Below are positions 1 to 15,748 of a DNA stretch of 64,000 bases, piece after piece. Below the pieces are notes generated by a model. The model was not told the origin of the DNA, made no database searches, and saw only the letters and a list, made by a program, of their open reading frames with translations. The stretch comes from Bacillota bacterium (GTDB lineage Bacteria > Bacillota > Sulfobacillia > JABLXB01), in assembly GCA_013178305.1 (NCBI GenBank), contig JABLXB010000001.1, positions 936,253-1,000,252 on the forward strand. The letters run 5' to 3'. Position 1 is the first letter of the stretch. Every line of letters begins with the position of its first letter. A program made the position numbers and the translations under genes.

Positions 1-43
1 CACTGCCTCCCCTCCAGCAGCCAGCGCAACAATAAAATGCTGC

Positions 44-1780
44 TCAGTACTCCACCGGGCGACACCTGCGTTCGCGGCAGTATTCGTCCAGGTCTAATCC
101 CTCCGGCAGACTGCCTCGTTGCTCAATGAATATCCAGTGAAACAAGTCAAACATCATGGCCTCAAGTGGTGTCCCGCAATACTTGCCGAACGGTCCGTCA
201 AACACCCGGTTGGCCGGAAAGGTGCGCACTACATACTCCTCGACTTGCTTGGCCACGTCGCGGATTGCCGCAGGCATCCCCCACTTCTGGCGCAAGACGA
301 CATCCCCAATTCCGTATTTCTCGAGTACCCTCCTGGCTGCACCCCTCAGGACCCTTTTCGTCTCGCCATTCATCACCTTGAGCTCGATGGGAAGGGATAG
401 GGCGAAGTCCGCAACGCTTTCCCCAAGATACGCAGGCCGGATTTCGAACCCGAACGCTGCACTCGACCTGTCGACGCTCCACAAGTGATAGTTCGTGAGA
501 CCGGCTTCCACCAGCAGGTCAAACACGTTGCGCTGGTAGACTCTCTCATCCTCAGGCTGAGGGAAGACTCGCTCGACGAGCCTCGTGACTTCCGGCGATG
601 GCTCACCTATTCGGCCGAGGCGTTCTCGAATTCGGTCGGACAGGCCGAGCGGATGGCAGTAGCTCCAGTAATAACCCCCGAACAGCTCGTCTGCCCCTTC
701 TCCCGAAAAAGCTACCCTTACGTGGTCCGCAATTCTTCTCGACAATAGGTGAAACGCGACTCCCCCGTGGATATCGAACACTCCGCCAGATACGGGGTTC
801 TCGTAATGATAGACGTAGTGCGGTAGTTCTTTCAGGTACTCTTCGGCACCCACCCGAAACTCAGTGTGTATCGAGCCGATGGCGGACGCGACCGCCCTTG
901 CTGGTGAGAGATCGGGTGATTTGAGCGACTCATACAGGGTGAATGTCTGGACCGGCCGTCCAATGACCTCAGACGCCAGCGCCACTAACAGGGACGAATC
1001 GATACCGCCTGACAGGTAAAAGCCCTTTTCGTCATTCCCATGCGTCATCATCTGTTTGAGAGTAGAAGACAGCGCGTTGAGCAGCCTCTTGGATTCGCTG
1101 TCTACGTAATAGGGGCCGTCCGCGAAGCAGGCAGGAGTAGGCTGATAGTATTGCTCGACCTTGACAGACCCCTCCGTTATAATCACCACTGAGCCCGGTG
1201 GAACCTGGAGTATTCCCTCGAAAGCAGTAAGGTCCGGCGAACAAATGAATCCGAATACTGCTGCCTCTTCAAGTGCCTGCCGGTTCACGGCTGGCACAAC
1301 TGAGGGATGCTTGAGAAGCGCCTTGATCTCCGAGGCGAACAAGAGAGCCCCGCCGGACCGGGTATAGAACAATGGCTTGATCCCAAATCGATCCCTGGCC
1401 AGGATCACGCGGTCGCTGTCAATGATCGCGAGTGCAAACATGCCCCGGAGCTTCTGAATGGCTGCCGCACCGTATCGCTCATAAAGCCTGGCAACTGTCT
1501 CTACCTCGCTTACCTCGCTTGGTGGGCAATCAAGCAGCGACTGCAGCTGGCGGTAGTTGTAGATCTCCCCGTTGAGCAGAACCGCGAGCCTCTTGTCACC
1601 GGATATCAGTGGTTGCCTGCCGCGGTCGTTCCCGACGAGGGAAAGCCGGGCGACGCCGACAGAATACCTGGGGGTTACGACAACCTCGGAGTCATCGGGG
1701 CCGCGGTGTGCAACGGCCTGAAGCATGTCGTCTATAACTTGCGGATTCGACTCACCGTAGATCCCGCAGATCCCGCACAC
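44..1780 (-). CDS. AsnB-type glutamine-dependent amidotransferase, last gene of the RiPP operon
   Basis: Asparagine synthase (glutamine-hydrolysing) family, 578 aa, normal full length. The protein begins MCGICGIYG, so after Met removal Cys2 is the nucleophile of an intact class II glutaminase domain (about residues 2-200). The synthetase half carries the ATP-pyrophosphatase loop SGGIDSS near residue 256. The family activates a carboxylate as an acyl-adenylate and attacks it with ammonia or another amine. The GTG start overlaps the TAG of the upstream gene by one base (TAGTG), so it is translationally coupled to a peptide-modification operon. I infer that it amidates or cross-links the precursor peptide rather than making free asparagine. 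Lasso-peptide cyclases belong to this family, but no lasso protease is present. A housekeeping AsnB role remains possible. Confidence 0.9.
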   Translation of the reverse strand: MCGICGIYGESNPQVIDDMLQAVAHRGPDDSEVVVTPRYSVGVARLSLVGNDRGRQPLISGDKRLAVLLNGEIYNYRQLQSLLDCPPSEVSEVETVARLYERYGAAAIQKLRGMFALAIIDSDRVILARDRFGIKPLFYTRSGGALLFASEIKALLKHPSVVPAVNRQALEEAAVFGFICSPDLTAFEGILQVPPGSVVIITEGSVKVEQYYQPTPACFADGPYYVDSESKRLLNALSSTLKQMMTHGNDEKGFYLSGGIDSSLLVALASEVIGRPVQTFTLYESLKSPDLSPARAVASAIGSIHTEFRVGAEEYLKELPHYVYHYENPVSGGVFDIHGGVAFHLLSRRIADHVRVAFSGEGADELFGGYYWSYCHPLGLSDRIRERLGRIGEPSPEVTRLVERVFPQPEDERVYQRNVFDLLVEAGLTNYHLWSVDRSSAAFGFEIRPAYLGESVADFALSLPIELKVMNGETKRVLRGAARRVLEKYGIGDVVLRQKWGMPAAIRDVAKQVEEYVVRTFPANRVFDGPFGKYCGTPLEAMMFDLFHWIFIEQRGSLPEGLDLDEYCRERRCRPVEY

Positions 1781-2583
1781 TAGCCGGCTCTCCCCCGGAA
1801 GTATTCGAGGGCCTTCGATAGCCCCCAGTACGCATATGCGGAGCCTTCATCGATGAAGTGGTAGGGCCAGAGGCCCGACTCGAGCTGAGTCCGGCACAAC
1901 CAGTCCGCAGCGCGTTCGATGACCTCCGGGTCTGCCTTGTCCGGCCATGATGTCAGACCGACCAGTACTATTCCCGTGCTCCAGGGGTCACTGCCGATGG
2001 GGTGGCCCTTCCAAGGGCCGAATCCGCCGTCGTCATTCTGTTCTCCGTGGAGGTAATGCACTGTACTGGTTACCAGATTGCCATCCGGACACTCGGCGCC
2101 ACAAGCCGACAGAGCTGTCAGGGCAAAACCACCCTTGTAGGTCAGCCTGACCGATTCATCCAAGTCCTTCTTCCAAGCGTACGACAGCCACTCAACCGCC
2201 TTCCGGTCCCGAAACACGGGGAGCATGGTCGCAATGAGGCTGGTCGTTATTATCCTGGGGCCGTCTCTATTCGAGAGTCCCCATCCTCCCGCTTCGTTTC
2301 TCATTGTCCGAAGCCAGTTAATAGCACGCTGCACCTGGACCTCGAATCCTCCCGCCGTCAGCAAAGCCCGAGTGCACCAAACGGTTTCGTCTACGTCTGC
2401 CCACCCGCCGTCAGGTTGCTGGCATTCAGATATCCAATTCGCAAGTTGCGTCTCTGACCCAACAAGAGAAAGGAGCCTAGCCACCCGTACGGGCGGCACT
2501 CTGGGAGCGAAGTCGCGCAGGTTGCCCATCAAAGCCACATAAGTCCGACCAATAACCTGCCGGAGATTCTCTACTTCTATCAT
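1780..2583 (-). CDS. alpha/alpha-toroid (prenyltransferase/squalene-cyclase repeat) protein with DVDE motif
   Basis: 267 aa with repeated QW-like motifs (QPDGGWADVDE, NEAGGWGLSN, NDDGGFGPW, ESGLWPYHF), the signature of the alpha/alpha toroid shared by squalene-hopene cyclases, protein prenyltransferase beta subunits and LanC-like cyclases. It is about the size of a single barrel domain. Residues 63-66 read DVDE followed by T, one residue away from the DXDD(T) acid motif of class II terpene cyclases. No signal peptide or membrane segment is seen. Start ATG overlaps the stop of the 1033-aa gene (ATGA), and its stop overlaps the AsnB start. Its place between a radical SAM RiPP set and AsnB suggests peptide tailoring or ring closure; that function is inference. 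Confidence 0.8.
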   Translation of the reverse strand: MIEVENLRQVIGRTYVALMGNLRDFAPRVPPVRVARLLSLVGSETQLANWISECQQPDGGWADVDETVWCTRALLTAGGFEVQVQRAINWLRTMRNEAGGWGLSNRDGPRIITTSLIATMLPVFRDRKAVEWLSYAWKKDLDESVRLTYKGGFALTALSACGAECPDGNLVTSTVHYLHGEQNDDGGFGPWKGHPIGSDPWSTGIVLVGLTSWPDKADPEVIERAADWLCRTQLESGLWPYHFIDEGSAYAYWGLSKALEYFRGRAG

Positions 2584-5500
2584 GCTTTTTGCTCCGCCAT
2601 CGCACCCACCTTGCGCCGTATCTGGTCGTCAGTCAGCGCCCTGCAAGTGTTGCATATGTAATAGATGCGCTCGGTGGGTCCAAATGTCACATAATGGAAA
2701 GTGCTAGTCCATGAATAAAACTGCCCACAACAAGAACACTTGATCAAGCGCTGTACTGGGTCAACGATCAAGCCCGTGTCGCCGGGCACGACCCTATTCC
2801 GCTTTGCGTGGCCATTCAAGTATTCTTCCAACTGTGTTGCCAGGTGGATCCGGAGCCCTCCAGCCATTTCTTCGCCGAATTCCGAGAGAACAATGAGGGG
2901 CGCGCGCGTCCCGGACCTAGCCATTAGATCTGTCGCCAGCCATAGGATTCCCGGAAAATACAAGTGTTGCTTCCCATGAAGTACGTGGTGCCGAGTACAG
3001 TTCTCATCAAAATAGGACATCATGGGAAACCTTTCAGGTGCGATGCAGCCAACATGCGCGCACACCAAGCCAGAATCCGAATACTCGTTGAAGATGTCTG
3101 GAGTCCACTTAGTATCACAGGGTAATCCGATTGTCCCAACGAGCTCATTCCTGGCTACTAGCCTGAGTTTGAACCCGATGCTATCGCACTTGGAGCTGTC
3201 CTCGTGTATGGCCTTGGTCGGTATGACCTCAACATAGTCGCTGCAGCCCTCGGTCACCCTGACTTGCAGTTGTTTGGCGCCCGGATCGTTCGCGTTCGCG
3301 TCCTCAGTGCTCGCTGGTTCCAGAACCTGCGTATGCTTGAACACGTATCTTGCGCTATCAATTGTGGGTTCAAGCCGTTTCAAGACGCCGGGCGAAAGGC
3401 CAAGAATTACTGGTGCAAAGACCTTACTGTGCTGCTTCCCGATGCTCTTGCTCCGGTTCCTTTCCAATTCGATTAGAAGGTTGGTGATTCTTCCAAAGTC
3501 TTCAATGTGGTCAGGATGATTGTGGGACACGAGGATCGCAGTGATATCACTTATGCGAAATCCCTCGAATATGAAATTCTTTACAAAATCATAGCCAGGG
3601 TCAATTGCAATACCGAGGTCGATCATCCCACTCTCGTTGGTGTGAAACAGAAAGTAGCCCCCGCCTTCAGAAAAAGTGAGCGCGGGCGTGAATGAATTCC
3701 ACCTCTTGAGTACCACAAAGCCCCAACCAGATGGCGTTTTCCAGGTATTGTCCTGTTCATAAAGGAGACGCTGAATGCGCTTGCGATTGGCCGTCAGCAC
3801 TCCGTCGTAATAGTGCCTCATGTCAGCAATCTTGGTGTCTATGCCGTTAGGAAGAATGGAGTCCTTGTCGCGCTCATGGTACGTACAGTTAGGGCCAAAC
3901 CGGTCGATTGCACGGGCACAGCCCTCGAGGCACTTCAGACTGCATGAGTGCAAGTGTCCCGTCGTCTGGCATTCCGGATTGTCGCTGGGGAAGAACCTCT
4001 TCGCCATGATCTTGCGGATTTCGCGGTGCCTATTGGCCTTTGGCCTCCTGAGACCGAGATCGTGAGCCCATTCCTTGAGTTCCGTGCGCTCAAACACAGT
4101 GAGTGGGGGTTTACGCTCGCCCCGAAGCAACTTCTGCACCAGATCTTTACAGTATTCTCTCCAGTCGCTTTGCATCTGTATTACCTTCGAGCTTACTGTG
4201 GGGCTCTGTGAACTCTTCTCGAGTTGTCTCATTAGCCGTCTCGAATTCTCGGTGAGGCTCGCCCGAAGCTCCTCCGCCAACGGTTGGTACTTATCCTTTG
4301 CCACGGCTACCAAGACCTCATCTTTCACAGGTCCGTCACAACAGAGGTCCAGGTAGTCTTGAACAGCTTGCAGAAGCACGTCGCCCGGCTGATGCAGGCT
4401 ATCAATCACGCGGATAGTCATCTCGCACAGGGGTAGACCCTTGACCCACAAGGACAAGGCCTCTGTCACTTCGGGTTTGTCCTTTTCGTTTTCCCCGATC
4501 TGAGCTTTGATTAGGTCGGCGATGGTCTTGAGAGATTTTCCTCCGTCATCGAGTCCTTTGTTGCCAGCCTCCTCCGATGTCGACTTGACGGTGTTGAGCC
4601 ACCACTTGTATTCCTGTTGTTTCCACTCGATCACAGAAGCACGTTGCTGTGATCGAAGAATCAGGCATTCTGTCTTTGGCTCCAAGAGGTCGCTCACAGT
4701 CTTTTCGAAATCGGGGGCCACAGACGAGTTGACTTCGCCCAAGTCGGATTTAGCCCGCCAAGTGAGTGCCATACGCCTTTCTTTCCAATAGCTAGCGTCG
4801 GGTTTCTCCAAGCTGTCATGCGAGAACACCCTGCTGCGGAGTGACTCCAAGACCCTTAGGGCTTCTTCGGTTCTTTGCATGTTAGTAAGGACATCAGCAG
4901 TCTCCACTGCCGCAGGAATCATTACATAGTAATCGAACAGGCTCTTATCCGAGTCGCCCCACTGCCACCACGAACCGATCCCGTCCCTCCCGAAGTAGTT
5001 GTTGTCTCGTATGGCTTCATGAATCTTGTCAAACTCCCTGAGCGCCTTGTCATGATCACGAACGTGAAAACATGCTTGAGCCTTGTTGTATAGCGCTACC
5101 AGCTCGTAGGGGCTCTCACCACCGCGCTTGCGGTTGTTGCTGCTCTTTAGTGCGGCGTTGAGCAGGTTGAGACTCTGATCTGCATACCCGACTGAAAGGA
5201 AGCCCGTGTAACACTGCGACACCTCATTCAGGTATAGCAGCCTCAAAAGGAACCTCTCACAGTCCCCTCTATTATCGCAGCCTTCCTTACCATCCCACAC
5301 CCTCGAGACCGGCATCTTAGTCGGAGCCTGAGGCAGGTGAGCAAGAAGGTAGAGAGATAGACCGTCAAGTTTCTCAAGGAGATCGGAATCATGGCTCCCC
5401 TGAATCACCGCGCGGGCTCTCTTCGCCGTAATCAGCCTCAGGCAGTCCGGTGACCATTGCTTTGCCTCACCCAGATGATCGGCCACTTCGCCAATCTTGT

Positions 5501-5681
5501 CTTCCAGGTCGATGGTAGAATGTGGGCCCAATTGGGCAAGATGCAAAGGATCAAACGGCCAATCGCGGTCATCTGACGAGAAGTGCCAACCGAGATCATA
5601 TCGTTCCGTATCGATGGCTGAGTCGTACCTGATGCAGAACCGTTCGAATTCGCGGAAGTCCTCTTGCCTCAAGACTTTCAC
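2580..5681 (-). CDS. large metallo-beta-lactamase-fold protein with helical-repeat N-terminus
   Basis: 1033 aa, GTG start six bases after the precursor stop. The first ~550 residues look all-helical and TPR-like (for example the stretch around YNKAQACFHVRDHDKALREF). A Cys/His-rich patch lies near residues 570-620. The metallo-beta-lactamase fold follows, with the metal motif HNHPDH (HXHXDH) at residues 720-725 and further His/Asp (for example CAHVG) downstream. The C-terminus has a CSCC...CNTC zinc-ribbon-like module near residues 980-1015. MBL-fold enzymes are hydrolases or oxidoreductases. Here the gene sits directly after the candidate precursor, so leader cleavage, thiol chemistry or nucleic-acid hydrolysis are all conceivable. 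I recognise no named family for the full-length protein. The function is unknown. Confidence 0.85.
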   Translation of the reverse strand: MKVLRQEDFREFERFCIRYDSAIDTERYDLGWHFSSDDRDWPFDPLHLAQLGPHSTIDLEDKIGEVADHLGEAKQWSPDCLRLITAKRARAVIQGSHDSDLLEKLDGLSLYLLAHLPQAPTKMPVSRVWDGKEGCDNRGDCERFLLRLLYLNEVSQCYTGFLSVGYADQSLNLLNAALKSSNNRKRGGESPYELVALYNKAQACFHVRDHDKALREFDKIHEAIRDNNYFGRDGIGSWWQWGDSDKSLFDYYVMIPAAVETADVLTNMQRTEEALRVLESLRSRVFSHDSLEKPDASYWKERRMALTWRAKSDLGEVNSSVAPDFEKTVSDLLEPKTECLILRSQQRASVIEWKQQEYKWWLNTVKSTSEEAGNKGLDDGGKSLKTIADLIKAQIGENEKDKPEVTEALSLWVKGLPLCEMTIRVIDSLHQPGDVLLQAVQDYLDLCCDGPVKDEVLVAVAKDKYQPLAEELRASLTENSRRLMRQLEKSSQSPTVSSKVIQMQSDWREYCKDLVQKLLRGERKPPLTVFERTELKEWAHDLGLRRPKANRHREIRKIMAKRFFPSDNPECQTTGHLHSCSLKCLEGCARAIDRFGPNCTYHERDKDSILPNGIDTKIADMRHYYDGVLTANRKRIQRLLYEQDNTWKTPSGWGFVVLKRWNSFTPALTFSEGGGYFLFHTNESGMIDLGIAIDPGYDFVKNFIFEGFRISDITAILVSHNHPDHIEDFGRITNLLIELERNRSKSIGKQHSKVFAPVILGLSPGVLKRLEPTIDSARYVFKHTQVLEPASTEDANANDPGAKQLQVRVTEGCSDYVEVIPTKAIHEDSSKCDSIGFKLRLVARNELVGTIGLPCDTKWTPDIFNEYSDSGLVCAHVGCIAPERFPMMSYFDENCTRHHVLHGKQHLYFPGILWLATDLMARSGTRAPLIVLSEFGEEMAGGLRIHLATQLEEYLNGHAKRNRVVPGDTGLIVDPVQRLIKCSCCGQFYSWTSTFHYVTFGPTERIYYICNTCRALTDDQIRRKVGAMAEQKA

Positions 5682-5687
5682 TCCCGT

Positions 5688-5831
5688 CTATCTGCATCCG
5701 TGACAAGACGAGCACTGCCTGCACGCAACCTTCGGCCTGCTAACCTCAATCAGTTCCTGCGGGAACTTCATTGTCTCTTCTTTCTTCACTGTGGGCTTCT
5801 GGTAAGGTCGCTTCTGGGTGACAGTCTTCAC
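5688..5831 (-). CDS. candidate RiPP precursor peptide, 47 aa, C-terminal CX2CX2CX2C core
   Basis: Small GTG-initiated frame. It starts MKTVTQKRPYQKP, has a Lys/Arg-rich leader with a mixed acidic/hydrophobic middle (KFPQELIEV), and ends VACRQCSSCHGCR. Cysteines are at 37, 40, 43 and 46, a perfect three-residue periodicity at the extreme C-terminus. The GTG overlaps the TGA of the PqqD-like gene (GTGA), and GAGGAGGGA lies upstream, so coupling is strong. Size, leader/core layout, and position directly after a radical SAM/SPASM enzyme and a PqqD-type leader-binding protein are those of RiPP precursors. It resembles SCIFF-type Cys-rich precursors in concept but has four rather than six cysteines and a different arrangement. 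Product structure is unknown. Confidence 0.75.
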   Translation of the reverse strand: MKTVTQKRPYQKPTVKKEETMKFPQELIEVSRPKVACRQCSSCHGCR

Positions 5832-6127
5832 GGCTTATCCCTCCTCAGCGCTATGCCCTCATTCACCAAGTCAGCCAACAACTGCTCCACGTCTTTTTGG
5901 GCTACCTCGGCAGTGACTTCGTACTCCTCGGCCAGCAACTCCGCAAGCGTCTCAACGTCGGCCACGCCTTCCGCGGCGATCGACTTGATAACTTGGTAGG
6001 CTTCCCGGTTTACCGAGTAGTGCCTTCCGTCCCTTGTGTTGAACACCCAGTATCTCCCGGCGTCCTCGACCTGACGAAGGGCAACGCCCTCTTTCAGTTC
6101 GTAGACATGTCCGCGTGCTTCCAGCAA
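5828..6127 (-). CDS. PqqD-family peptide chaperone (RiPP recognition element)
   Basis: About 99 aa from a TTG start preceded at seven bases by GGAGGAGG. A longer reading with an upstream ATG is possible, but it would overlap the radical SAM gene by ~97 bp. The body has the PqqD winged-helix pattern: a beta strand around GRYWVFNTRDGRHYSVNREA, then helices ending in EQLLADLVNEGI. PqqD-like proteins bind the leader of a precursor peptide and present it to a radical SAM enzyme. The chosen start overlaps the radical SAM gene by 34 bp, and the stop overlaps the precursor start. The three adjacent genes therefore form the minimal enzyme-chaperone-substrate set. Confidence 0.85.
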   Translation of the reverse strand: MLEARGHVYELKEGVALRQVEDAGRYWVFNTRDGRHYSVNREAYQVIKSIAAEGVADVETLAELLAEEYEVTAEVAQKDVEQLLADLVNEGIALRRDKP

Positions 6128-7152
6128 TGCGGGTCCTCCTCCAGGTAGTCGCCGGTGATGCAGTATGCCATTGCCCTGCATCCCCGGCACAGCGGGGCAA
6201 GTTCACACGCACCGCACTTCCCTTTGAGATTCGACGGATTCCTCACCGACCACAAAACATCAGAATCATACCATGCCTTAAAGACGCCGTCCGTCAATAC
6301 GTTGCCGATCGGGATTGGCAACCGCCTGCAAGGATAGAGCGTCCCATCATGCATGATGGTCAGCGCATTGGTGCCCACGGAACACATCGCGCCAACAGTG
6401 CTGTCCTCCGCATCAATCAGGCAGAAGAGGGGTCGGTGCATCAGCACTCGAATGCGCCTGGTCCCAGTGCCAAACGCATGGACCGTCTTGAAAAGAGCCG
6501 CTGCGTCGTCTCTCGAAAGCACCAGTTCTCGCACCTCTGCACCCGAGCCCTCCGGCACAAACCTCTCCACAGCGAAGGCATCGACTCCTTCGTCCTCCAA
6601 GAAGCGAATCATCTCCGGGACGTGGTCGTTGTTCAGCTTCGACGCCGTCATCATGACACTCACCTGAAAGCCGTGGCCTTTCAGCTCCCTTATGGCTGAC
6701 ACCGTCGTATCGAACGACCCAGTCCCGCGTATGACATCGTTGACTTCACGGTAGGGCGATTCTAGTGACAGTTGCACCCTTCGGAGTTTCGACAGGCGAT
6801 CCAGTCTCTGGAGGTCGCCGCCAGAAAGCAAGGAGCCATTGGTCAAGACATCGTAGTACGTAAACCAGTCGCTCCGATCCATGAGCTCCGCCAACCGGAA
6901 GAGGTCTTCGCGCCTGATGAAGGGCTCCCCGCCAGTCAACGAAGCAGAGCCCGGGCGCTGCCACTGGCGCAGTGCTCCTTCAAGCCGGTGGAAGACCAGA
7001 GTCAGCTGATCAGGTGTGAGTTCGTTTGCGCCGTCGTAAGAATCGTGGTAGCAATGTCTGCAGCGAAGGTTGCACCTCTGGGTGATGTGCCACTGGAAGT
7101 AGAATTCGCCCAGGGAGTTTCCGGTCATCTTGCCCCTTCCGGGCCGTGACAT
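6094..7152 (-). CDS. radical SAM/SPASM peptide-modifying enzyme
   Basis: 352 aa. The radical SAM [4Fe-4S] motif CNLRCRHC is at residues 27-34 (C27, C31, C34), followed by SLTGGEPF, the usual GGE motif for SAM binding. The C-terminus (from about residue 250) has a Cys-rich SPASM domain with MCSVG, YPCRRL and CGACELAPLCRGC, which holds auxiliary Fe-S clusters. This architecture is typical of enzymes that make thioether or carbon-carbon links in peptides. First gene of the six-gene operon. ATG at 7152 has only a weak ribosome site; an ATG eight codons later follows GGAAGGGG and could be the true start. The Cys-rich 47-aa peptide encoded downstream is the likely substrate. No export gene is linked. 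Confidence 0.9.
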   Translation of the reverse strand: MSRPGRGKMTGNSLGEFYFQWHITQRCNLRCRHCYHDSYDGANELTPDQLTLVFHRLEGALRQWQRPGSASLTGGEPFIRREDLFRLAELMDRSDWFTYYDVLTNGSLLSGGDLQRLDRLSKLRRVQLSLESPYREVNDVIRGTGSFDTTVSAIRELKGHGFQVSVMMTASKLNNDHVPEMIRFLEDEGVDAFAVERFVPEGSGAEVRELVLSRDDAAALFKTVHAFGTGTRRIRVLMHRPLFCLIDAEDSTVGAMCSVGTNALTIMHDGTLYPCRRLPIPIGNVLTDGVFKAWYDSDVLWSVRNPSNLKGKCGACELAPLCRGCRAMAYCITGDYLEEDPHCWKHADMSTN

Positions 7153-7427: not shown

Positions 7428-9113
7428 ATGGACGAGAGAACCCTGTACGTCTACGAAACCAACGCTGAGGTCTTCAGCAAGCAGTACCGCTCGGCCGAGC
7501 CGATGCAGCTATATCACCTGATCACGGCCTTCTTCCACCCGGGCGAACCGACGGTCGACATCGGCTCCGGCAGCGGCCGCGATGTCGCCTGGCTCAGCGC
7601 GAACGGTTTCCCGGCGGTGGGATACGATGCCCTGCCCAGGATGGTCGCCGAGGCGCGGGCATCGTACCCCGGCATCGACACCCGCCAGGACAGCCTGCCC
7701 GATCTGAAGACCATCCCCGACAATGCGTACTCCAACGTGTTGTGTTCGGCAACCATAATGCACCTGCCAAGGCAGGACCTCATAACAGCGGCCTTCAACC
7801 TCGCCAGGATACTGAAGCCGGGCGGCCGGCTGATACTCACCTACCGGCCGAGCCAGGCGGATGGAGAACGCGAGGCCGACGGGCGGCTTTACACCAGCAT
7901 TCCACCGGGAAAGCTGGTGCTGCTCCTGGAGTCGACGGGACTGAAGAACCTCGCCGTCGTCAAACAGCGCGACGCCTGGAGACCCGAGATAGCCTGGCAC
8001 GTCATCGTGTCGGAGAAGGGCGCCGACTCACCGGCCCACGGGCTGAACCGGATACAGGGCGTCCTGGTCCAGGACCGGAAAGTCGCCACGTACAAGTTCG
8101 CCCTGATCCGCGCGCTCTGCCACGTGAGCCGCTACGAGCCGCACGTGGCCAGGTGGGGCCGGGACGACGTGTACGTCCCCCTCGCCTCGCTGGCCGTGAG
8201 GTGGCTAATATACTACTGGCCGGTCGTCAACGCCCCCGACTTCATCTCGCAGATGCATGGCGAGAAGCCGGGCGGCAAGAACCTCATCTCTTTCCGCCGG
8301 ACGGTACAGGACCTCGCCGGTTTCTTCGGACTGGACGGCCTGTATGCGGTGCTCAACCACATCGACGAGGAGCCCGGCCTGTACGTCGCCAGCCTGAAGC
8401 GGATCGCCGACGCCATACGATGGGGACCTGTCACCTACGCTGGCACGAAGGGCCCCCGCCTGTTCCGGTTCGTACGCCGCCTCCCCGCCCAGCCCGGCGA
8501 CCACCCAGGCGACAGCGGTCCCGATGACCCCTTTGGATGGGTAGTCGTCCCGCAGCCTATCTGGATGGACATCTCCCGCTTCGACCACTGGATCGAGGAC
8601 AGCATCGTTGTCCGGTGGGCGCAGCTCACCGTGGAAATGAACCCCGGCATCACCATGAGCGAAGTACTGCCCCTCCTGCTGGCGAGCCCTGGAGCCAGAC
8701 GCGGCACGGACGAAGTCCGCCAAATCCTGCGAGCGGCGGACACGGGTCTCGAGTGCGTCTGGAGCGGGCAGCCCCTCAAGGACGACTACAACGTCGACCA
8801 CGTGATCCCGTACTCCGTGTGGGGCAACAGCGACCTGTGGAACATGCTCCCCTGCCTGCCGCGCCTGAACAACGAGAAACGGGACTGCCTGCCCACGCAA
8901 AGGCTGCTCGACCAGCGTGAGGATGCCATCGATTACTACTGGCGGCTCTACCGGTCGCACCTGCCGAAGCGGTTCGATACCCAGGTGCGGCGCGCCCTGG
9001 GGTCGACAACGACGTCCGCGAGCTGGGAGAGGCTCGCGCTGTCCGGTCTCAAGGAGACGGTGGAGAAACTGGCGTCGACGCGGGGACTACTGCGCTGGGA
9101 GCCACGAGGGTAG
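7428..9113 (+). CDS. SAM-dependent methyltransferase fused to an HNH endonuclease
   Basis: 561 aa. The N-terminal ~190 residues are a class I SAM methyltransferase (motif VDIGSGSGRD near residue 45, then ILKPGGRLILTYRP), closer to small-molecule or UbiE-type enzymes than to DNA methylases. A middle region of ~250 residues is unrecognised. The C-terminus is an HNH nuclease: C at CVWSG, DHVIPYS with Asp457/His458, then WNMLPC and the paired Asn of LNNEKRD. No signal peptide. It stands alone, divergent from the RiPP operon and facing a decayed toxin-antitoxin region. A defence or mobile-element role is plausible but inferred. ATG at 7428 follows GGGGGCG. Confidence 0.85.
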   Translation: MDERTLYVYETNAEVFSKQYRSAEPMQLYHLITAFFHPGEPTVDIGSGSGRDVAWLSANGFPAVGYDALPRMVAEARASYPGIDTRQDSLPDLKTIPDNAYSNVLCSATIMHLPRQDLITAAFNLARILKPGGRLILTYRPSQADGEREADGRLYTSIPPGKLVLLLESTGLKNLAVVKQRDAWRPEIAWHVIVSEKGADSPAHGLNRIQGVLVQDRKVATYKFALIRALCHVSRYEPHVARWGRDDVYVPLASLAVRWLIYYWPVVNAPDFISQMHGEKPGGKNLISFRRTVQDLAGFFGLDGLYAVLNHIDEEPGLYVASLKRIADAIRWGPVTYAGTKGPRLFRFVRRLPAQPGDHPGDSGPDDPFGWVVVPQPIWMDISRFDHWIEDSIVVRWAQLTVEMNPGITMSEVLPLLLASPGARRGTDEVRQILRAADTGLECVWSGQPLKDDYNVDHVIPYSVWGNSDLWNMLPCLPRLNNEKRDCLPTQRLLDQREDAIDYYWRLYRSHLPKRFDTQVRRALGSTTTSASWERLALSGLKETVEKLASTRGLLRWEPRG

Positions 9114-12607: not shown

Positions 12608-14197
12608 CTAGATCTGAAGAGCGTATTCGGAGGCATTTATAGGAACGTCTATAACGACGGGCACGCTGCCGTGAATGCTGTCGCGAACGGCACGCTTGAG
12701 CTGGTCAATCGACGCTACCCGGATGCCCTTGGCTCCGAACGACTCGGCAACCATTGCCCAATTGACCCCACCCAAATCCATACCGTACCGTTCGAACTTG
12801 CGACGCGACTGAAGGACCTGTATCAGCGTGAGGCTTTCGTCGTTGAAAACGACATAGACGACGCTCTGCTTTCCCCTGACGGCTGTCTCAATATCGTGAA
12901 CCATCATGGCAAATCCGCCGTCACCCACGACGGCCACCACCGGTCGGCTGCCGGCACACCGCTTCGCCGCAATCACCCCGGGTACGCCGTATCCCATTGA
13001 CGATAAGCCATTCGACATGAAGAATGTGAGAGGCCGGTCTGCCGACCAGGCCTGTCCACCAAGAAGCTTGTGTGCACCAACGTCAAAGACAAACACGCCG
13101 TCTGCGGGAAGCTCCTCGCGTATGGCGGCCAACGCCTTCGCAGGTGAGACGCCTGGACCCGCAAGGTTCTTCGGCGCCACTATCGCGCGGGCTACGGATA
13201 TTTCCTCAGCCGTCCACTCGTGCCTACCCCGGTAGCCAGCCGTGAGGGCAGACAGAGTGGCGGGGACCGACCCCACGAGGTAGTCTCCCGGCCATCCGGC
13301 GCGGTCACGCGGAGCATCTTCAAGCCAGATTACCGGCGAGGTCGCCGGCCACGTCTTGTCGGCTTCGCTCGCGTCAAACCCTACTCCAATTATGAGATCG
13401 CACTTTCCAATGAACTCGAGTGCGCGGTCGTCGGCGGCCATCCCCGTAGCGACCCCAACAAATAGTGGGTGATCGTGCGGGAATATCCCTTTGGCCTTGG
13501 GAGAAACCAGAACCGGTATTTCGGATCGTTCCGCCAGGACCCTTAACGGTCCGGCCGTAGACAGGGGTTCCACGTTGATGCCGACCACGAGGGCAGGCCG
13601 AGCGGATCGCTCCAGCCGCCCGAGTACTTCATCAAGGCTGATCGTGCTCGGCTGCTCGTCTTTCGGCGGTTGCTCCCCCTCACCGAGCGAACCCGGCAGA
13701 ATGGCTTCCGAGCGGGATATGGTGCTGGCGAGCTCCAGGTGAACCGGGCCCCGCGGCCTGCGCAGGGCTACGTCAATCGCGGCGGAGATCGCCGCGCCCG
13801 CGTTCTGCCTGGTGACCCTGACAGACCACTTCGTAACCGGCCGGTACAGGGAGCACAGGTCTATCCGCTGGTGTGGCATATTCCCGTTACACCTCGGGCG
13901 CCATCTGTCCGGTAATCGCGATCACTGGGGAGCGATCCAGTTAGGCGTTTGCGACACCTGTAATCATGTTTGTGGCGCCGGGGCCGAGAGTCGACAGGCA
14001 CACACCCGGTCTCCCGGTTATCTGTCCGGTGACATCGGCGGCGAAAGAAGCCGCTGATTCATGCCGCATAAGTATGAATGGCAGGCCGGCACAGCGGCCT
14101 GCTTCAACGAAATCGAGCACCTCCCCGCCCGGTAGCCCGAATACCTCCTGCACTCCTGTATAAGCAGAGCCTTGACAATCACTTCAGCAACGAGCAA
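12608..14197 (-). pseudogene. acetolactate-synthase-like thiamine-diphosphate enzyme, frame-broken
   Basis: The pieces in order are: TTG start after GGGGAGGGG, reading ELLVAEVIVKALLIQ; a one-base loss; then QEVFGLPGGEVLDFVEAG through TLGPGATNMITGVANA; a TAA; LDRSPVIAITGQMAPEV; another TAA; a frame change; then a long intact frame (423 codons) to TAG at 12608. The last part has the TPP-binding GDGGFAM...N motif and GLSSMGYGVPG. Intact relatives are ~550 aa and decarboxylate 2-oxoacids (acetolactate synthase, glyoxylate carboligase, oxalyl-CoA decarboxylase). Two stops and two shifts make a full product impossible. The long 3' frame could in principle be expressed, but it lacks the PYR domain. 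Confidence 0.8.
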
Positions 14198-14481
14198 TTC
14201 ACGTCCCCTCCCCAATGCGAGTTTTCGGCCGCCGCAACCGCGACGATTTCAACAGGAGCGCCCATGGCTTGAATGGTGTTGGCATGATTGAGATAGCAAA
14301 TGATTGTCGCAGCGCAGGACGCTTCGAAGAAGGAGTCCGGGAGACTCCGCATAAGGTTTCCGCCGGTTGATGGGCGGAAGTGGGTGAAGAGCGCGGGCGG
14401 AGGGTGCGCCGGCAATTTACATGGGCATGGAGCTCGAAGTTGGTGTTTGGTCGGCCCCTCCCGCGTACCGCCCATATGAGT
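14198..14481. other. unassigned stretch between TPP pseudogene and IS110 element
   Basis: A minus-strand frame here ends with EASCAATIICYLNHANTIQ...ENSHWGGDVN, which reads like the C-terminus of a real protein, but I do not recognise the family and the 5' part is missing. It may be a gene cut by the IS insertion. Confidence 0.3.
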
Positions 14482-14587
14482 CCGGCTTAGATAGCCGGAG
14501 AACCCGTACAGGTGTATGCATCGCTGAACCCGTAAGTCAGAGGGCCCGCCGCGCTCGAAAGAAGTCTTATTGCAGGAGGCTATTGTC
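14482..14587 (+). ncRNA. possible IS110 bridge-RNA segment
   Basis: IS110-group elements carry a structured non-coding RNA in the left end, just before the recombinase. This stretch starts with a perfect hairpin CCGGCT-TAGAT-AGCCGG (14482-14498) and runs to the transposase start. Guide loops could not be defined by eye. It is called on position and one hairpin only. Confidence 0.3.
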
Positions 14588-15748
14588 ATGCCGCGCTACT
14601 TCGGACTCGATCTGCACAAAGACTACGTGCACGGTTGCGAATGGATTACCGGAGTTGAAAAGGGAAGGCATTTCCGATTCCCCAACACCCCGGAGGCCCG
14701 GCAACGATTTGTTTCTGTCGACATCGACCAGGCTAGCAGGGTGGCCATTGAGGTAACCGGGAATGCCTTTCAAATTCATGATCTTCTTTCTCCGGTCGCA
14801 GGTCAAGTGGTAATGGCTAATCCGGTGGAAATGAAACGCCTGGGTAGTGGGCGCCATACTGACCGTGTAGATGCGGAACGGCTGGCGAAGATGCTCGCTC
14901 TCGGCACAGTGCCGGCTGTCTGGGTGCCACCGCACGAGATCCGCGAAATGAGGGATCTGGTTTGCCTTAGAGAGCAACTCGTGAGGCAACGAATACGCAG
15001 CCAGAATGAGGCCAAGGGGGTGTTGGGGCGTAACGGCTACTCACTGGCTAGGAACAGCGACATCCGCAAGTGGTTAGCATCGCATAGTCGCGACATTCGG
15101 ATTGGAGAAGCGGACTTGGCAATAGCGGTGAGCATTGTTCGCATGCTCAATTGCATTGATGAGGAAATCAGGGCCACGGAGTCCGAGATCGCCCGGCGTG
15201 CAATGTCCAACCCGAAGATCCATCTACTTATGAGCATCACCGGTGTAGGGCTTATCGCTGCAAGCCTGATCTGGGCTCGCCTTGGAGACGCTTCTCGTTT
15301 TCGTAGTCCAAAGGCAGTAGTCCGGTATGCTGGGCTCGACCCATCAGTACTGCAGTCAGGGGAAGAAGACCGACGTGGACACATCAGCAAGAATGGGGCT
15401 TCTGACCTGCGCCGTGTGCTGGTACAAGCCTTCTATCAGGTAGCGCTTCACGACTCGGAGACACTGGGGAAGTTCTTCCACCGTAAAGAGAAGCACCTGG
15501 GACGCAAACGGGCGGTGATTGCGACAGCACGCATACTCCTCATCGTCGCCTGGGCGATGCTTCTGACCGGCGAGCCGTACCGTAGTCTCAAATCCACGAG
15601 GTACACCCAGAAACTCAAGGCCGTGAGACAACAAGCTGGAGAGCTCCACAAGCCCCATGTCGCACTGGACAAGGCTCTGTGCGAGTCGTGCAGCCTGCTG
15701 ACGCGCAGCAGAACCGACCATTCGATTCAAGCAGAGGCCGCCGCATAG
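14588..15748 (+). CDS. IS110-family transposase (RuvC-like DEDD recombinase)
   Basis: 386 aa from ATG 14588, which follows GCAGGAGG at ten bases; an in-frame TTG at 14570 is less likely. The N-terminal DEDD domain starts YFGLDLHKDYVHG and includes AIEVTG and HTDRVDAERLAKM. The C-terminal transposase_20 region has ITGVGLIAASLIWARLGD, RYAGLDP and GHISKNGASDLRRVLVQAF, with the conserved Ser-region typical of the family. Length is normal and no lesions are seen, so it may be active. IS110 recombinases move a circular intermediate guided by a bridge RNA. Confidence 0.93.
   Translation: MPRYFGLDLHKDYVHGCEWITGVEKGRHFRFPNTPEARQRFVSVDIDQASRVAIEVTGNAFQIHDLLSPVAGQVVMANPVEMKRLGSGRHTDRVDAERLAKMLALGTVPAVWVPPHEIREMRDLVCLREQLVRQRIRSQNEAKGVLGRNGYSLARNSDIRKWLASHSRDIRIGEADLAIAVSIVRMLNCIDEEIRATESEIARRAMSNPKIHLLMSITGVGLIAASLIWARLGDASRFRSPKAVVRYAGLDPSVLQSGEEDRRGHISKNGASDLRRVLVQAFYQVALHDSETLGKFFHRKEKHLGRKRAVIATARILLIVAWAMLLTGEPYRSLKSTRYTQKLKAVRQQAGELHKPHVALDKALCESCSLLTRSRTDHSIQAEAAA

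Follow-up and report, generated by a model that had tools for sequence, protein, structure and literature searches.

A radical SAM, PqqD and Cys-rich peptide gene cluster, very probably a new RiPP class, whose precursor is also carried by viruses

Parts of several described systems recur in the gene cluster considered here, which occupies positions 44 to 7,152 of a 64,000-nucleotide stretch (the window) of contig JABLXB010000001.1, assembly GCA_013178305.1, from a Bacillota bacterium. Among ribosomally synthesised and post-translationally modified peptides (RiPPs), the sactipeptides and ranthipeptides (AlbA, SkfB, PapB) share with it a radical S-adenosylmethionine (SAM)/SPASM enzyme, a recognition element and a Cys-rich core. 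Lasso peptides share a PqqD-type B1 protein, a YxxP leader motif and an AsnB homolog, and mycofactocin and PQQ share a radical SAM/SPASM enzyme, a PqqD-like protein, a short peptide with a conserved modified part and a metal-dependent hydrolase, to which mycofactocin adds a glycosyltransferase. PqqD-type recognition elements bind a W/Y/LxxP motif (PMC12710340), and in RiPP clusters, asparagine synthetase (AS)-like enzymes convert the C-termini of peptides to amides or even nitriles (PMC13060819). The original prediction had described the cluster as a six-gene RiPP-like operon and as the window's best candidate for an undescribed system, and no curated NCBIfam or Pfam model was found to fit it. 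Relative to these collections, to open-licence PubMed Central (PMC) papers and to general knowledge, its sequence makes it very probably a new RiPP class.

The six predicted genes are real, all lying on the minus strand and either overlapping or six nucleotides apart. The operon does not end with them, as it continues past the window edge into a seventh gene. The features are as follows, in window positions.

6094–7152, minus strand: radical SAM/SPASM maturase of 352 residues, with CNLRCRHC and seven SPASM Cys
5828–6127, minus strand: PqqD-like RiPP recognition element of 99 residues (PF05402, 6e-11), with homologs in the same slot elsewhere
5688–5831, minus strand: precursor peptide of 47 residues, its GTG start overlapping the PqqD stop, with homologs in bacterial and archaeal loci and viral contigs
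5793–5804, minus strand: YxxP leader motif of the precursor, Y10 and P13 being invariant in 11 precursors
5691–5723, minus strand: precursor core CRQCSSCHGCR, with low pN relative to pS in type A; the common viral C-terminal 11-mer
2580–5681, minus strand: giant protein of 1033 residues, with tetratricopeptide repeat (TPR) and metallo-beta-lactamase (MBL) parts and homologs at the same operon place in loci L051 and L053
2757–3734, minus strand: MBL domain of the giant (residues about 650–975), predicted fold nearest YhfI, RNase Z and Apyc1
1780–2583, minus strand: alpha/alpha toroid of 267 residues, class II terpene-cyclase fold in an AlphaFold2 (AF2) model, DxDD not conserved
44–1780, minus strand: AsnB-type amidotransferase of 578 residues, keeping the glutaminase Cys2, the SGGIDSS loop and ADELFGGY
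1–3, minus strand: start of a GT4-like glycosyltransferase gene that extends beyond the window (L004:17828-18856), with homologs 3' of AsnB in L051, L056 and L075

The precursor, VKTVTQKRPYQKPTVKKEETMKFPQELIEVSRPKVACRQCSSCHGCR, has relatives of 40–59 residues at 11 other bacterial or archaeal loci, so that a homologous peptide occupies the same slot in 12 loci with the window included, and in 40 viral contigs; it matches no NCBIfam model. Eleven bacterial and archaeal precursors have Y10, P13, M21, F23 and the four Cys in common. Among 118,581 stop-to-stop open reading frames (ORFs) in the loci then examined, 18 end in the pattern C..C..C.{1,2}C, and 15 of these entries are cluster precursors (12 distinct loci including the window, plus duplicate copies), each directly 3' of a PqqD gene; the peptide is therefore not a chance ORF. 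In the type A core, the proportion of nonsynonymous differences (pN) is 0.125 against 1.04 for synonymous ones (pS; synonymous sites are saturated), and in the type B core (CFGCTNCNCN) the values are 0.000 and 1.20. Over the last 30 leader residues pN reaches 0.38 (type A) and 0.30 (type B), so that selection constrains the core much more than the leader, and the core is, by this comparison, under strong purifying selection. By analogy, YxxP is the kind of leader motif that PqqD-like recognition elements bind. The locus thus has two of the features that characterise a RiPP cluster, namely a short leader-core precursor gene beside modifying enzymes, and a PqqD recognition element accompanied by an invariant YxxP; modification of the core, the third, is a prediction.

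The CxxCxxCHxC layout of the core also suggests a metal-binding peptide or metallophore, in which the four Cys, with the His, would bind metal and the enzymes would tune the binding. Cys-rich RiPP metallophores do exist (PMC12668002), but the operons carry no metal transporter or metal regulator, and the multinuclear non-heme iron-dependent oxidative enzymes (MNIO) that define the known examples are absent; this explanation is considered quite improbable.

The radical SAM protein keeps its CxxxCxxC motif, and the SPASM residues C257, C275, C313, C316, C322, C325 and C343 are invariant in comparison with L043 and L044. Among curated families, that of the ACGX system (TIGR04340) scores highest, but its 179 bits fall far short of the cut-off of 400; the L043 and L044 enzymes score 171 and 174 bits with the same model. 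Heme and molybdenum families score lower than TIGR04340, and the enzyme belongs to no curated non-RiPP family. Sactipeptide and ranthipeptide models likewise remain below their cut-offs (StsB, 70 of 625 bits; AlbA, 63 of 850; PapB, 62 of 340), as does the mycofactocin radical SAM model (102 of 265). The start of the PqqD gene has been corrected, since the listed ORF from 6190 begins too early and comparison with homologs points to a likely TTG at 6127; homologs stand in the same slot in L043, L044, L051–L053, L055–L058 and L083. In the radical SAM tree, types A and B fall with a third group (L060/L064) in a 24-member clade with 99/99 support. This sister group has a related radical SAM enzyme and PqqD protein and a precursor ending in DSCYS with one Cys (L060:11472-11576, L064:11293-11430), and is set apart from the system because of the single-Cys peptide and the lack of a toroid.

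Relatives were sought in a single genome-wide scan with a radical SAM alignment against 84,980 named genomes, and the cluster was found in distant bacterial phyla and in one archaeal genome bin. All ten relatives with enough downstream sequence have the radical SAM gene, PqqD, a precursor of 40–59 residues and the toroid. The co-occurrence that the original prediction called for, together with a short CX2CX2CX2C peptide, was found: L051, a Desulfobacterales bin, has all six families and the GT4 glycosyltransferase in the order of the window, interrupted by one DNA methylase gene, L053 has the six in that order through AsnB, where the contig ends, and L056 (Methanoperedens) has five of the six and the glycosyltransferase, everything except the giant. 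Window order is mostly retained in BMS3Bbin14 and Methanoperedens, and the L052 sequence ends after the precursor. The inserted gene of L051 encodes a DNA N6/N4 methylase and lies between precursor and giant (L051:10402-11142). In L075, a Nitrospira bin, the radical SAM gene runs directly into a toroid fragment, followed by a truncated AsnB and GT4 (1454-4118), and the locus is a type A cluster that has either undergone a deletion or been misassembled.

Type B comprises L043, L044, L055, L057–L059 and L083, the last of which ends inside its amidohydrolase gene. Here the giant, AsnB and glycosyltransferase are replaced by an amidohydrolase and a B12-radical SAM protein beside the toroid, with an AsnRS-like protein in several members. 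Two genomes of the same phylum as the window, G468 and G196, have a close radical SAM gene followed by PqqD, a homologous peptide ending in CFGCTNCNCN and, farther downstream, a homolog of the toroid; an in-frame TAG considered in their radical SAM genes was dismissed, since it is only the normal stop codon, with which the match ends. A toroid profile run on 398 genomes of the phylum retrieved G000, G196 and G468 alone at E < 1e-100 (the next at 6e-13), and the same three alone have a close radical SAM gene (E < 1e-80; the next at 7e-44). With the query genome excluded, both genes occur in two of 397 genomes and one alone in none, for which simple counting gives a chance of 1 in 78,606, with cut-offs that were set in the E-value gaps after these had been viewed. 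A DNA-level search for the type B core pattern matched G196 and G468 alone among 388. Sequence comparison thus shows that the operon is mobile and sporadically distributed, and that its gene set has been kept in distant phyla.

This distribution bears on the possibility of a product like PQQ or mycofactocin, in which the core would become a small redox or metal cofactor for other cellular enzymes. The radical SAM/PqqD/peptide logic is the same, the core is conserved far beyond the leader, and the cluster has no exporter and, as in mycofactocin, includes a hydrolase and a glycosyltransferase. Against this, the cluster is very sporadic, being present in 3/398 genomes of the phylum and in 1/63 of a class in which congeners lack it, its surroundings are mobile and defence-related, and the peptide occurs alone in phages; a cofactor is regarded as unlikely.

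Pfam and NCBIfam place the proteins of the operon in Radical_SAM with SPASM, PqqD (6e-11), Lactamase_B (a weak match, 7e-5), SQHop_cyclase_C (7e-11) and Asn_synthase/GATase. With 299 bits against a cut-off of 267, AsnB exceeds the threshold of the asparagine synthase model TIGR01536; it also has the Cys2, SGGIDSS loop, ADELFGGY and E-Y dyad of the glutamine-dependent asparagine synthetase superfamily intact, and for these reasons is expected to function as a glutamine-dependent carboxylate amidase; with the lasso cyclase model NF033535 it scores 135 of 525 bits, below the cut-off. The toroid model (predicted local distance difference test, pLDDT, 90.6) resembles squalene-hopene cyclase (SHC; Z 27.0), SsDMS (Z 26) and the AprG transaldolase (Z 21.7). 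The original description of it as cyclase-like was borne out for the fold, which is of the class II terpene-cyclase type, and not for a LanC-like signature: the nine toroids have no invariant Cys, so that the Zn-binding Cys-Cys-His of a LanC-like cyclase is missing. A working class II terpene cyclase was also rejected, since the DxDD site, aligned with residues 63–66, reads DVDE, DVEE or DPEE in type A and SIVD, GNTD or GVVD elsewhere. Invariant instead are R106-D107-x-x-R110, Y149-K150 and W239-x-Y-H242, and the toroid may be a fold re-used for peptide chemistry.

The giant consists of a helical, TPR-like part (residues 1–641), the MBL domain and a C-terminal Zn ribbon. Its metal ligands (HxHxDH, H826, D856, H906) are invariant in five homologs, and the fold of the MBL domain, in a model of modest quality, is nearest to YhfI, RNase Z and Apyc1. 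It has homologs at the same place in the L051 and L053 operons, but it is dispensable, being absent from Methanoperedens and from all type B loci; it was rejected as a system marker, its relatives elsewhere being orphans. Solitary TPR and MBL proteins of 780–807 residues occur in housekeeping surroundings in L005 (G192) and L006 (G330) and share the giant's GGGxF...IDPGF...HxHxDH signature, which marks an unnamed protein family.

Taken together, the cluster probably makes a chemically modified Cys-rich peptide. The PqqD protein would bind the YxxP leader and hand the precursor on to the radical SAM/SPASM enzyme for modification of the CxxCxxCxxC core, most likely by intramolecular thioether or other Cys-centred crosslinks, thioether chemistry as such being a tentative possibility. 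The toroid, with its former terpene-cyclase fold, may act on or hold the modified peptide, AsnB would adenylate and amidate a carboxylate, for which the C-terminus is a plausible candidate, a sugar would be added by the glycosyltransferase and the MBL hydrolase would process or release the product.

Because the operon has no exporter or immunity gene, the product probably works within the producing cell. A protease gene is likewise absent, and these absences argue against an antibacterial RiPP, that is, a bacteriocin of sactipeptide or ranthipeptide type borne on mobile elements. Such a product would suit the Cys-rich core, the mobile elements around the loci and the SPASM enzyme, whose nearest solved structure by sequence is SkfB. 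Nevertheless, the core is nearly invariant across phyla, whereas bacteriocin cores usually vary, and orphan copies exist in phages; a bacteriocin is judged rather improbable.

The surroundings of the cluster also include defence genes, as identified with PADLOC. Five of the 12 bacterial loci adjoin restriction, BREX, Gabija or similar genes: L043 is surrounded by BREX (PglX, PglZ, BrxL), bSEFIR and Gabija-like genes, L054 adjoins BrxA/BrxC and AbiEi, L053 adjoins an HEC-01A-like ATPase, L051 has the type II methylase inside its operon, and the neighbours of the window operon include a methylase, a type IIG enzyme and a PDC-S35-like gene. At least 13 proteins among the 85 in the flanks, falling in four loci, match PADLOC models at 1e-20, compared with about 3 of 85 in control flanks of other radical SAM loci, all of the latter resembling housekeeping proteins. 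The matches cluster in few loci, and the surroundings are therefore suggestive of defence and not proof of it. The operon proteins themselves showed only a generic radical SAM (pVip) similarity in PADLOC. Lanthipeptide clusters also adjoin defence genes (PMC12715929), and intracellular lanthipeptides are reported to protect against phage (PMC12360287).

The GT4 gene that starts at the window edge is followed by a transposase gene, a type II DNA methylase gene, another transposase gene, which interrupts the PDC-S35-like gene, and the gene of the type IIG restriction enzyme. The interrupted GHKL-ATPase/PDC-S35-like gene (L004:12102-15286) is apparently split by the transposase gene at 13470-14858, and the same PADLOC models align with one of its parts and, in the stretch that follows, with the other. 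On the other side, divergent from the operon, window positions 7428–9113 (plus strand) encode a protein of 561 residues in which an N-terminal methyltransferase is joined to a Cas9-like HNH domain (HNH_4) at the C-terminus, and which has no counterpart beside the other clusters.

Viral copies of the precursor were found by searching IMG/VR contigs with short core DNA patterns. The type A core pattern occurs in 17 viral contigs and a wider form in 40, and each of the 40 encodes a complete precursor homolog, with leader and core. No cluster enzyme is encoded by any of the 40 in the viral DNA examined, where records may be fragments; taken whole, none of the 17 viral records of the first set matches the radical SAM profile, and 10 of the 11 larger ones have no radical SAM domain. 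Searches of viral contigs with single radical SAM or giant proteins, or with radical SAM or toroid alignments, gave no match, and PLSDB plasmids gave none to the peptide or the giant. The 31 distinct viral peptides have a core pN of 0.094 and a pS of 1.06, 19 of them end in exactly CRQCSSCHGCR, and a start codon with a plausible ribosome site is present in 22. Phage leaders resemble particular bacterial ones (identity 93% for L169 and L052, 78% for L160 and L056, 69% for L172 and L053, 56% for L142 and the window), and for four of five bacterial precursors the closest leader found is from a phage.

Many of the viral precursors adjoin terminase, portal, head morphogenesis or head protease genes. 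This conserved place in unrelated phages, and the lack of a radical SAM gene in nearly all of the larger records, could mean that the phage peptide is a small zinc- or iron-sulphur-binding packaging protein, not a RiPP precursor there, which the bacterial operon has borrowed. However, YxxP and MxF, with their spacing, are kept in 30 of the 31 distinct phage peptides and would be needless for a metal-binding core alone, and the phage leaders match particular bacterial ones; a packaging protein is therefore given a low probability. Under the preferred reading, in which the cluster takes part in phage-host conflict, the orphan phage copies would be substrates or decoys for host maturation enzymes. 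A role in a contest between microbes and viruses is suggested because many viruses carry the peptide gene without modifying enzymes, and the case for a role in phage-host conflict is evenly balanced. The more specific proposal of a RiPP-based intracellular phage defence with a counter-move, in which an enzyme-less precursor copy in the phage packaging or head module, having the invariant core and a leader like that of the host lineage, occupies host enzymes or is matured for phage use, is somewhat unlikely.

One viral contig of 133 kb (L138) is the sole viral match of the type B core pattern and carries a type B cluster, adjoined by a gene that we take to be holin-like. The B12-radical SAM gene of this cluster is split in two frames (L138:1027-2339). 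A related gene of 110 residues (MKxKxxFIDxxGNIWRDxTLI...) adjoins the precursor in several viral contigs that are otherwise different (L154:2652-2987, L152:9155-9487, L166:3467-3811).

Several points weigh against a new RiPP class with a part in phage-host conflict. The class is known here from sequence alone, with no product or modification seen, the support for leader binding consists solely of YxxP and MxF, and the reaction of the toroid is not assignable. The giant model has a mean pLDDT of 53.5 and is usable only in the MBL domain, much of it at about 70–80. The relatives come almost entirely from metagenome bins, several of them truncated at contig ends, and the archaeal assignment of L056 is that of its bin together with archaeal-looking neighbours. 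The orphan-peptide phages are contigs with no assigned host, none turned up when the GenBank phage set was searched to E = 1, and the phage copies could have a function that has nothing to do with the bacterial cluster.

The cluster would add a RiPP class with a terpene-cyclase-fold partner, in which AsnB (type A) and often an AsnRS-like enzyme (type B) apparently fill a similar carboxylate-activating slot. The nearly invariant 11-residue core offers one substrate for several enzymes of unassigned chemistry, which makes the modification tractable. More striking than a new class is the presence of this precursor, complete with its leader but unaccompanied by the enzymes, in many viruses; should host machinery act on the phage copy, this would be a ribosomal-peptide arms race of a few small genes.

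Among known systems, the ACGX system is the nearest curated radical SAM family and has a Cys-repeat target peptide, presumably of ACGX repeats as its name implies. The cluster lies far under its cut-off and has CxxC spacing, a YxxP leader, the toroid, AsnB or an AsnRS-like protein, and an MBL protein or amidohydrolase. From sactipeptides and ranthipeptides, whose models give 60–70 bits against cut-offs of 340–850, it differs in its other partners, its invariant core and its lack of exporter and immunity genes. In contrast to lasso peptides, its AsnB keeps the glutaminase Cys2 and it has a radical SAM enzyme; by inspection, no B2 transglutaminase-like protease is present in the window operon, L051, L053 or L056. 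Unlike mycofactocin and PQQ, it has a four-Cys core and no dedicated oxidoreductases, and is sporadic and often defence-associated. Nitrilobacillins also have an AS-like enzyme with an adenylation dyad in a RiPP cluster, but their partners are MNIO and HExxH proteins (PMC13060819), in place of the radical SAM, toroid and MBL proteins here. Intracellular anti-phage lanthipeptides similarly come from RiPP clusters in defence islands and are active in the cell, but use lanthionine chemistry, and the section of that source considered here mentions no phage-encoded orphan precursor (PMC12360287). Finally, the class II terpene cyclases (SHC, SsDMS) and AprG share the toroid fold (Z 21–27), whereas the protein of the cluster is a single toroid of 267 residues that has, in place of a conserved DxDD, the invariant RDxxR, YK and WxYH.

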